Source: Planctomycetia bacterium (GTDB lineage: Bacteria; Planctomycetota; Phycisphaerae; UBA1845; UTPLA1). Taken from it: 64,000 bases of DNA. Of the stretch, positions 40,372-42,874 are shown in pieces (within the stretch, counting starts at the first letter, position 1; every line of letters begins with the position of its first letter). The notes below the pieces were generated by a model. The model was not told the origin of the DNA. It was given only the letters and a program-made list of their open reading frames with translations, and searched no databases. Position numbers and translations under genes: made by a program. The DNA is taken from positions 1 through 64,000 of the forward strand of contig JABTTW010000001.1 in assembly GCA_015075745.1 (NCBI GenBank). The letters run 5' to 3'.

Positions 40372-40532
40372 CCCATATGTCAGGCGGGCCGGTTTGGCGG
40401 CGATTCCTTCGATAGAGGCGTCGCCGAGCTGGCGCTGCCTAAAAAAATCCGGCCCACAGGATGCGTCGAGCGCGTTATCATTGTGCTCGGCAAGCGGTAT
40501 ACATCGACACCGCCCCGGAGAGTGCCCAGTTC

Positions 40533-41873
40533 ATGGATAACGGAAAGCCGGTCAGCCTTAATCTGAACGTTCGCGGCATGGGCCAGTCGGCGACCTTAGC
40601 CATCAAAGACAAGTGTCGGGAGCTCCGCCGCCTGGGTCGATCGGTCTATGATTTCGGTTTGGGCCAGTCGCCATTTCCCGTGCCGCCGTCCGTGGTTGAG
40701 GCCTTGCGGCTCGCCGCGCCCGAGAAAGACTATCTTCCGGTCAAGGGACTGCCCACTCTTCGCGAGGCCGTCGCCGACTATCACCTTCGCAAAGATCAAA
40801 TTGAGTTTCACCCGGACGACGTCATTGTCGGACCGGGCTCTAAGGAGCTGATGTTCATTCTTCAGCTCGTTTATTACGGCGAGATTCTGCTGGTTCCGCC
40901 ATGCTGGGTATCGTATTGGCCGCAGGCTCGCATCATCGGTCGGCGCATCAGCCTGATCCACGCGTCGCATGCGGCACGATGGCGGCTGACTGCAGAGCAA
41001 CTGGACAAATCGCTGGACATCGTCGGTGATGATCATCGGCCTCGCCTGCTCGTTCTCAACTATCCGAGTAATCCGACCGGTCAAACGTACTCGCCCGATG
41101 AATTGAAGGAAATCGCCGAGGTCTGTCGGAACTACAGCATCATCGTGCTTTCCGATGAGATTTACGGGCAACTGCACTTCAAGGGAGAGCATGTTTCGAT
41201 CGGCCGATACTATCCCGAGGGCACGGTCGTTAGTTCGGGCCTCTCCAAGTGGTGTGGGGCGGGCGGCTGGCGGCTCGGGACATTTGCGTTTCCGAAGGAC
41301 CTTTCCTGGCTGGTGAACGCCATCGCGGCGGTGGCCAGTGAAACTTATACCTCCGTCAGCGCACCCATCCAGTATGCCGCCGTGACGGCTTTTCATTGCG
41401 GCGTGGACATTGAGCGCTACCTCTGGCACGCCCGGAGATTGCTCGCAGAGATTGCTCGTCGCAGCGTCGCGATACTTCAGGATTCGGGCATCCAGGTCTT
41501 TGCGCCGGCTGGTGGGTTTTACCTTTGGCTGGACTTTTCCCGGGTCGCGGCCGAACTCGCCGAGCGCGGTATCAAGGACGGTACGACGCTCTGCGATCGC
41601 ATTGTCGCCGAAACCGGCGTTGCCATTCTTCCCGGGGCAGCATTCGGCCGTGCGCGGTCGGACATGTCTGCGCGGCTCGCGTTTGTGGACTTCGATGGCG
41701 CCAAGGCCCTGGCGGCATCTGAGACGATTCCGCTGGATCAACCGCTTCCGGATGAGATGATCGAGCGGCAGTGCGGGCATCTCTTTGAGGGCATGCGCCG
41801 ACTCGCCTCATGGACTCGCGAGGACGCCGCGGTCCCCGAGCCGACGGGCTCGACTTCTCGAGAAGCTCACTGA
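40533..41873 (+). CDS. Class I/II PLP-dependent aminotransferase
   Basis: A 446-residue fold-type-I aminotransferase, aspartate-aminotransferase-like. Features are YLPVKGLPTLREAVADYH, VGPGSKELMF, LVLNYPSNPTGQTYS, IIVLSDEIYGQLHF and SSGLSKWCGAGGWRLG, whose lysine binds PLP; the arginine of FGRARSDMSARLAF may bind the substrate carboxylate. It is longer than usual at the C-terminus by ~30 residues. It converges with phhA, 39 bases away; an aromatic amino-acid substrate would fit the neighbour but is inference. Confidence 0.87.
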   Translation: MDNGKPVSLNLNVRGMGQSATLAIKDKCRELRRLGRSVYDFGLGQSPFPVPPSVVEALRLAAPEKDYLPVKGLPTLREAVADYHLRKDQIEFHPDDVIVGPGSKELMFILQLVYYGEILLVPPCWVSYWPQARIIGRRISLIHASHAARWRLTAEQLDKSLDIVGDDHRPRLLVLNYPSNPTGQTYSPDELKEIAEVCRNYSIIVLSDEIYGQLHFKGEHVSIGRYYPEGTVVSSGLSKWCGAGGWRLGTFAFPKDLSWLVNAIAAVASETYTSVSAPIQYAAVTAFHCGVDIERYLWHARRLLAEIARRSVAILQDSGIQVFAPAGGFYLWLDFSRVAAELAERGIKDGTTLCDRIVAETGVAILPGAAFGRARSDMSARLAFVDFDGAKALAASETIPLDQPLPDEMIERQCGHLFEGMRRLASWTREDAAVPEPTGSTSREAH

Positions 41874-41912: not shown

Positions 41913-42668
41913 CTACTTCCCCTTCGGCCAGCGAATCGCGTTGCGTTCATTGATCTGGTAGATCAGCACGCGCCCTGCCTCAAGGAGTTGTTCCAGCGAC
42001 TCCGCGATGAAGAGTACATCCTGGAACACGTCGATCCTAAACGGCTGGGCGATCACTTCGGCAAGTCGAAACGGCCTTCGCTCGACCTTGTCGGAAAGGC
42101 AGTGCGCCGCCTCGCCGGGTGATGAGAGCAAGCCCGACCCGAGCAGCCGGGTCTCGCCGCCCTCGCGGATGAGTCCAAACTCAATCGTGAACCAGAAAAG
42201 CCGGGTCATCTCGGTCAGATCCTGATCGGTGGTGATGGCGTCGTGAATATCGCCGAAGTGCTGCATGAGGCGACCGTATGCCGGGTCGGCCATGAGGGCC
42301 ACGTGACCGAAGACATCGTGGAAGATGTCCGGTTCCTCGACGTAGTCCATGGAATCGGCGCTGCGGATGCCGATGGTCGTCGGGTAATTTCGATCCCGAA
42401 GACATTGGAAAAAATAGCGAGCATCGAGGTAGCCGGGCACAGCCGCGGCCCTCCAGCCGGTTATCGGGGCGATGCGGTCGTTGATGTCCGACAGTCGCGG
42501 GAGGCGTTGGAAGTCCAGCTTGATCTGGTCGAGTCCCCGGTAGAACTGTGAGCAGGCCTTGCCGCACAGAGCCGCCTCCTGCCGGCGACAAAGCGCCTGC
42601 CACACTTCGTGATTCTCGGGGGTGTATGAATCAGGGTCTTGCTGAATGAACAGGTTCTTGAGTTTCAT
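41913..42668 (-). CDS. phhA: Phenylalanine 4-monooxygenase (phenylalanine hydroxylase)
   Basis: A 251-residue pterin-dependent aromatic amino-acid hydroxylase converting phenylalanine to tyrosine. The iron ligands H117 and H122 in EEPDIFHDVFGHVALM and E163 in WFTIEFGL are present, as is YFFQCLRDRNYPTTIGIR. The length fits the monofunctional bacterial type. AAGGGA stands 9 bases before the ATG. No pterin-4a-carbinolamine dehydratase is adjacent. The gene lies directly downstream of a terminator preceded by a tyrosine-rich leader ORF and a consensus-like promoter, so expression is probably controlled by attenuation. Confidence 0.95.
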   Translation of the reverse strand: MKLKNLFIQQDPDSYTPENHEVWQALCRRQEAALCGKACSQFYRGLDQIKLDFQRLPRLSDINDRIAPITGWRAAAVPGYLDARYFFQCLRDRNYPTTIGIRSADSMDYVEEPDIFHDVFGHVALMADPAYGRLMQHFGDIHDAITTDQDLTEMTRLFWFTIEFGLIREGGETRLLGSGLLSSPGEAAHCLSDKVERRPFRLAEVIAQPFRIDVFQDVLFIAESLEQLLEAGRVLIYQINERNAIRWPKGK

Positions 42669-42706
42669 AAGAGGATTTCCCTTGCTGGTTGTGGGTAATC
42701 AATGGC

Positions 42707-42737
42707 AATAAAAAAGCCCGCCGGACCGGGCGGGCTT
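42707..42737 (-). terminator. Attenuator terminator upstream of phhA
   Basis: On the minus strand, AAGCCCGCC (42737-42729), loop CGGTCC, GGCGGGCTT (42722-42714) and a run TTTTTTATT: a strong intrinsic terminator located 38 bases before the phhA start codon, in the same direction as phhA. Its 5' arm is complementary to GGCGGGCT at 42788-42781 inside the leader ORF, allowing a mutually exclusive antiterminator. Confidence 0.88.
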
Positions 42738-42767
42738 ACACGACTTGAAATGCGCGTCTCTGGTCTC

Positions 42768-42836
42768 TTACCAGACGGGTAGCCCGCCGGAATATCGTGG
42801 ATAACGATAATAGAGATAGGACGCGTGGGAATTCAT
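42768..42836 (-). CDS. Tyrosine-rich leader peptide of phhA
   Basis: A 22-codon ORF ending in TAA. Its middle reads SYLYYRYPRYSG, giving five tyrosines (residues 7, 9, 10, 12, 15), all encoded by TAT. The codons that follow the last Tyr (16-19) contain the GGCGGGCT that can pair with the 5' arm of the downstream terminator. This is the geometry of a classical leader peptide: stalling at Tyr codons frees this segment for antitermination, while completion covers it. It is too short to be judged by homology. Confidence 0.75.
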   Translation of the reverse strand: MNSHASYLYYRYPRYSGGLPVW

Positions 42837-42844
42837 ATCAGCCT

Positions 42845-42874
42845 ACTCTAGCAAGCCGATATTTAGAATGTCAA
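42845..42874 (-). promoter_or_regulatory. Promoter of the leader-phhA transcript
   Basis: Minus strand: perfect TTGACA at 42874-42869, 18-base spacer, TAGAGT at 42850-42845 with a TGC extension (TGn) immediately before it. Transcription would start near 42838, about two bases before the leader ATG, so the leader ORF would be nearly leaderless. Confidence 0.7.

Follow-up and report, generated by a model that had tools for sequence, protein, structure and literature searches.

A probable tyrosine-codon attenuator before phhA in a planctomycete and its likely kinship with trp leaders

The phhA locus and its leader

The window, a stretch of 64,000 nucleotides from a planctomycete genome (G000), carries on its minus strand at 41913-42668 the gene phhA for a phenylalanine 4-hydroxylase of 251 aa. 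The protein matches Pfam Biopterin_H (PF00351) at 2e-44 and PAH sequences of the PDB at E 6e-51, and it scores over the cut-off of NCBIfam NF008877 (phenylalanine 4-monooxygenase). Judged by these sequence matches this is a genuine phenylalanine 4-hydroxylase gene, as the first-pass annotation had named it. A class I/II aminotransferase gene at 40461-41873 (+) is convergent to phhA, 39 nt from the phhA end; its product might use aromatic amino acids, and no specific family was matched over its cut-off.

Upstream of phhA on the same strand lies a leader ORF of 22 codons, MNSHASYLYYRYPRYSGGLPVW followed by a stop (42768-42836). Its Tyr codons are codons 7, 9, 10 and 12 (within 42801-42818) and codon 15 (42792-42794), and all five are TAT, as annotated before. 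The probability of at least five Tyr codons among the 21 codons after the start is 4e-6 at the random-triplet Tyr frequency of 0.012. In 464 kb of sequence (the window and a further 400 kb from the same genome), 182 combinations of a short ORF with a terminator-like structure were found, and a single one of these, the window leader, has at least three Tyr codons. The enrichment in cognate codons that marks the leader ORFs of leader-peptide attenuators is present here and in a relative of another genus of the same family, G008 (Tyr 5/22 and 5/18 codons, respectively).

Between the leader ORF and the gene, where an attenuator has its terminator, an intrinsic terminator is located at 42737-42707 (-), and it is kept in G008. 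It comprises a 9-bp stem with a 6-nt loop (AAGCCCGCC-CGGTCC-GGCGGGCTT, 42737-42714) and directly thereafter the T tail TTTTTTATT, which is separated from the phhA ATG (42668) by 38 nt. The 5' arm of the terminator contains segment C, AGCCCGCC (42729-42736), and the 3' arm contains segment D, GGCGGGCT (42715-42722). An identical copy of segment D, segment A, is found within codons 17-19 of the leader ORF (42781-42788). Segment A can serve as the 5' arm of an antiterminator by pairing with segment C, and the A:C duplex has a calculated energy of -20.2 kcal/mol. The terminator, its distance from phhA, the repeat and its pairing partner had all been described correctly.

Two further hairpins overlap the end of the ORF. 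The A:B hairpin GGCGGG-CTA-CCCGTC (42774-42788) offers segment A an alternative local partner; five of its pairs are kept in G008 in the same alignment columns, with a G-U to A-U change. The hairpin TCTGGT-AAGAG-ACCAGA (42758-42775) surrounds the stop codon.

A consensus scan recovered the annotated promoter (TTGACA, 18 bases, TGC-TAGAGT) at 42874-42845 (-). The -35 hexamer TTGACA (42869-42874) and the -10 hexamer TAGAGT (42845-42850, with TG just before it) together match the consensus at 10/12 positions across an 18-bp spacer, and shuffled sequences contain 0.3 such sites on average. The -10 hexamer ends 8 nt 5' of the leader ATG.

Ribosome position and the choice between hairpins

For the switch model, the RNA 3' of the ribosome was folded as it would be before segment D exists, with the ribosomal footprint taken to reach 15 nt beyond base 1 of the P-site codon. 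With the ribosome at Tyr codon 7, 9, 10 or 12 segment A is left free, and the probability that segment C is sequestered upstream before D is made is 0.91. This value falls to 0.04 at Tyr codon 15, where the ribosome covers segment A, and to 0.00 at the stop codon. The alternative pairing expected of an attenuator, set by the position of the ribosome, is thus found in silico, and folding codon by codon, the check suggested earlier, reproduces the proposed switch. The first-pass annotation had argued that a stall at early Tyr codons frees segment A and that a ribosome at the stop covers it. The latter agrees with our folds; the former is right for the first four Tyr codons, whereas the fifth masks segment A. 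Since a stall at codon 15 hides the antiterminator, the signal in this model is carried by the first four Tyr codons. The terminal TGG codon was also considered as a sensor of Trp and was rejected, as a ribosome located there masks segment A.

When the region from the stall edge to segment C was dinucleotide-shuffled 300 times, 5 shuffles reached the value of 0.91 and none showed the drop. Two features of the window RNA have to be set against this. In the absence of a ribosome the RNA before D also favours A:C (0.88), which we count against the attenuator reading. Furthermore, full-length folds prefer the terminator in every state, so the switch must be a kinetic one, with the antiterminator as a kinetic trap. 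Classical attenuators likewise work by a kinetic trap. The A:B hairpin and the one at the stop codon may delay the RNA polymerase, or may hold segment A when no ribosome is present; even so, A:C keeps its 0.88 in the ribosome-free fold of the window.

The switch is weaker in G008, where the corresponding probabilities are 0.74, then 0.40 and 0.49, and 34/300 shuffles reach this result. The antiterminator of G008 has an A-C mismatch in its core and partly different pairs, and this also counts against the attenuator reading.

Leaders at phhA and trpE loci

Among 114 genomes of the order, a PhhA of more than 60% identity occurs only in the window genome, in G008 (71%) and in G395 (72%), which belongs to another family. 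Searches at the level of order, class and phylum found none of that identity beyond these two relatives; genome contigs yielded one close PhhA relative and viral contigs none.

The G008 phhA is preceded by an 18-codon leader, MNCKASYYYYGVTPYPDG, with five Tyr codons at positions 7-10 and 15, and by a nearly identical terminator, AAGCCCGCCCATGTCGGCGGGTTTTTTT, at the same place. The expectation that Tyr codons should be conserved at orthologous loci is borne out by this leader. Tyr codons 7, 9, 10 and 15 are common to both genomes, with a synonymous TAT/TAC difference at codon 10. Aligned with G008, the window leader shows 74% identity over the opening 54 nt of its ORF (z 4.7 relative to shuffles) and 84% in the terminator (z 5.3). 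For the 60 nt preceding the ATG the identity is 42%, about what shuffles give (z -1.4), and for fourfold sites of phhA it is 40%. Conservation among relatives, as expected of an attenuator, is therefore seen in the Tyr codons and the terminator. The Tyr type of leader is known from these two genomes only, and we count this against the attenuator reading, together with the G395 phhA (L019/L020), before which neither a leader ORF nor a terminator was found. The PhhA protein tree pairs the window genome with G008 (support 81/77) and places G395 as their sister, which calls for no more than a single gain or a single loss in G395. With ORF and terminator missing from G395, the attenuator is, as far as these loci tell, a lineage-specific gain or loss. 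Upstream of more distant PhhA homologs (35-52% identity; one locus, L031, truncated and read out of frame) no Tyr leaders were found.

The domains PDH_N and PDH_C of prephenate dehydrogenase were not detected in the window genome or in G008, in searches whose controls were positive in 14/14 and 13/14 genomes and which found the enzyme in several relatives. Because no prephenate dehydrogenase was detected, PhhA is plausibly the sole source of tyrosine in both genomes. Across the family of the window genome (G000-G015) prephenate dehydrogenase is undetected in most members, many of which also lack PhhA. As most members without PhhA likewise have no detectable prephenate dehydrogenase, another Tyr route or auxotrophy must occur in the family, and a missing gene is no proof that tyrosine comes from PhhA alone. 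In G395, too, no C-terminal domain of prephenate dehydrogenase was found.

R1, a covariance model made from only the two phhA leaders, was used to scan the 114 genomes of the order. Besides its two parents it matched one locus in G091 (E 2.7e-6 per genome) and one in G028 (E 0.008, which alone is not significant across 114 genomes). Both matches lie directly 5' of trpE and are Trp leaders, MTMTQRNYWWWFEAGGFPAW in G091, where a trpE-trpG-trpD cluster follows, and MRIASRRAWYWWYSLNGGPPVW in G028. A search with the G091 TrpE singled out nine genomes with a TrpE of a separate subfamily, and in seven of these the leader before trpE has a run of Trp codons, a terminator and a segment A located at the end of the ORF or close to it. 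In the other two, G027 and G058 (L071, L072), the terminator is kept with one Trp codon only, as in decaying or altered attenuators. A broader model (R2), run over 397 genomes of the class, returned no further Tyr leader and one additional Trp leader, MTREITHFGWWRPVEIN before trpE of G229, a member of another family; the other matches inspected were mostly plain terminators. The Trp-run leaders of trpE in this planctomycete class (loci L064-L072 and L112) are probably leaderless; they stay below the Rfam threshold where scanned (the G091 leader scores 20.9 bits against Trp_leader, cut-off 41) and have no precedent in the literature searched.

Upstream of two trpE genes the unit of Trp-codon ORF and terminator occurs twice in a row. 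In G091 (L066, reverse-complement 1044-1166 and ~1305-1413) the peptides carry WWW and then ...CGWWWYADPGGPPPR, and in G092 (L065, 980-1102 and ~1296-1424) FWW and then ...RRRWWRKEQSGPPKF. These arrangements are possibly double trp attenuators.

A:C pairing can be drawn in all 14 leader units compared (the window and 13 others) with varying letters, for example GGCGGGU:ACCCGCC as against GACAGGU:ACCUGUC in G229; the segments were picked by eye, so this comparison illustrates the pairing and is no test of significance. The window leader and that of G028 are both 22 codons long, have GG at codons 17-18 and end in P-V-W-stop (CCC GTC TGG TRA), and the CTGGT...ACCAG core of the stop-codon hairpin is common to the window, G028 and G091.

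The phhA leaders and the trpE leaders also agree in where they begin. Measured from the best sigma-70-type -10 of each leader, the distance to the leader ATG is 8 nt in the window, 9 in G008, 8 in G091, 9 in G028, 9 in G092 and 7 in G046. It is 10 nt in G085 and G083 (7 if an earlier in-frame ATG is used); G229 fits if a downstream ATG is taken, as do G027 and G058 by eye, and G079 is an exception. With nearly all leader ORFs beginning 7-10 nt past the -10, the mRNAs of the phhA leaders and of most trpE leaders are probably leaderless, and the window transcript probably starts at the leader ATG or no more than about 2 nt from it. No clear Shine-Dalgarno sequence was seen for the window leader ORF; the phhA start is preceded by an AAGG-type site in the window genome and in G008. 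The first-pass annotation was right about the promoter and the ORF and overlooked both the probably leaderless start and the lack of a clear Shine-Dalgarno. In planctomycetes, as in some other groups, few genes have a Shine-Dalgarno sequence, and there are signs of leaderless mRNAs or RPS1-dependent starts (PMC5397173).

Before trpE of the window genome, of G008 and of other family members no leader was seen, so in the first two genomes the donor unit is absent at that gene. The simplest reading, as Trp leaders are the more widespread, is that a trp attenuator gave rise to the Tyr leader through replacement of its codons; this is probably correct, although the direction of descent is itself inferred. 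Convergence of GC-rich arms is possible and would leave the shared ORF end unexplained. We lean, with appreciable reserve, towards the fuller view that the phhA leader is a trp attenuator re-targeted in nature: one planctomycete lineage would have exchanged the Trp run for Tyr codons and set the unit before phhA, giving a Tyr sensor on a leaderless mRNA where no prephenate dehydrogenase is detectable. This kinship had escaped the first-pass annotation, whose attenuator reading our results otherwise support.

Reading of the leader and known systems

In our judgement the leader very probably acts as a ribosome-mediated transcription attenuator through which phhA responds to the charging of tRNA-Tyr. 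The transcript would begin close to the leader ATG, and a ribosome would load onto the leaderless ORF. When charged tRNA-Tyr is scarce, the ribosome would stall at Tyr codons 7-12 and leave segment A (GGCGGGCT) free to pair with segment C (AGCCCGCC) before segment D is made; the terminator would be blocked and phhA transcribed. When tyrosine is ample, the ribosome would move beyond codon 15 to the stop and mask segment A, C:D would pair, and transcription would end about 130 nt from its start. PhhA would in this way produce tyrosine from phenylalanine only on demand.

Three other explanations have to be weighed against such an attenuator. The leader might encode a nascent peptide that arrests the ribosome, as in tnaC, with phenylalanine, tyrosine or another metabolite binding to stall a Tyr-rich peptide and induce phhA for catabolism. 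PhhA is catabolic in some bacteria, and the core AS-Y-x-YY is kept in the window and G008. The peptide is, however, poorly conserved off the Tyr positions (L/Y at 8, RY/GV at 11-12, a different C-terminus), and the trp leaders of the same RNA architecture have another peptide, again with a run of cognate codons, which argues for codon sensing; we regard arrest as improbable. Scarcely better placed, and if anything a little less probable, is a remnant of a trp attenuator blind to its new codons, that is a constitutive partial terminator with incidental Tyr codons. The likeness to the trp leaders and the terminal TGG codon would suit it, and the trpE leaders of G027 and G058 show that a codon run can be lost. 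Yet Tyr codons 7, 9, 10 and 15 are kept in two genera with a synonymous TAT/TAC change while neutral positions have mostly changed, and five Tyr codons are improbable through drift. Chance, meaning that a GC-rich repeat and an ORF that happens to be rich in Tyr lie beside an ordinary upstream terminator, is hardly credible even in a 60% GC genome where GGCGGG/CCCGCC motifs are not rare, for ORF, position, terminator and segment A recur in G008 and the trpE leaders, shuffles seldom give the switch, and the orthologs make chance very unlikely.

A T-box was sought in the window and no Rfam match was obtained at E<=1; nor did any other Rfam family reach its threshold. Among Rfam leaders the best score was that of Phe_leader (RF01859, 21.2 bits, cut-off 55), and Trp_leader (RF00513) was not listed.

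Leader-peptide attenuation has been described for Trp, Phe, His, Leu and others in the literature searched. Tyrosine appears among the T-box-regulated cases in a survey of 2005 (PMC1262725), and according to a survey of 2010 leader peptide systems were unknown beyond Proteobacteria and Actinobacteria before its own Firmicutes cases (PMC2965389). The open-licence papers searched, a basis that makes for a weak negative, contained no Tyr-sensing leader peptide, no attenuation of phhA and no planctomycete trp leader; the first-pass annotation, too, named no precedent for phhA or for planctomycetes. The proposed mechanism is of a known kind; its specificity, its target and the phylum are new.

Leader-peptide attenuators are textbook devices, in the literature searched mainly from Proteobacteria, Actinobacteria and some Firmicutes, with the sensing of tyrosine left to T-boxes. 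If our reading is true, classical attenuation is in use in this planctomycete class, with Tyr before phhA and Trp before trpE, and the specificity of an attenuator can be rewritten by few codon changes while the RNA switch is retained. The mechanism needs a ribosome close behind the RNA polymerase, and the system would thus allow the coupling of transcription and translation in Planctomycetota to be tested by simple genetics, and likewise initiation on leaderless mRNAs in that phylum.

Several known systems share parts of this design. Tyr T-box riboswitches, like the proposed leader, sense uncharged tRNA-Tyr and control termination (PMC1262725); unlike it, they bind the tRNA directly and do not need translation. 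Corynebacterium glutamicum aroR has an aromatic Phe-Tyr-Phe run before aroF; according to the passage of PMC11802643 concerned, which cites Neshat et al. 2014, it responds when Phe is limiting but not when Tyr is, and it differs from the window leader also in phylum and target. The attenuator transcript of Sinorhizobium meliloti trpL starts at the ATG of the leader ORF (PMC7298713), as the window transcript probably does; in contrast to the window leader it has Trp codons, has trpE(G) as its target and belongs to an alphaproteobacterium. With Escherichia coli trpL (RF00513) the window leader shares a short ORF with a run of pathway-product codons directly before the structural gene, and mutually exclusive antiterminator and terminator; it differs in that it is proposed to sense Tyr, precedes phhA, is probably leaderless and has the 5' arm of its antiterminator inside the ORF end. 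The planctomycete trpE leaders (G091, G028, G092, G046, G085, G083, G079, G229) have their parts in the same order as the window leader, with segment A at or near the ORF end, a terminator and, in nearly all, a -10 located 7-10 nt before the ATG, and they differ from it in carrying Trp codons before trpE instead of Tyr codons before phhA.
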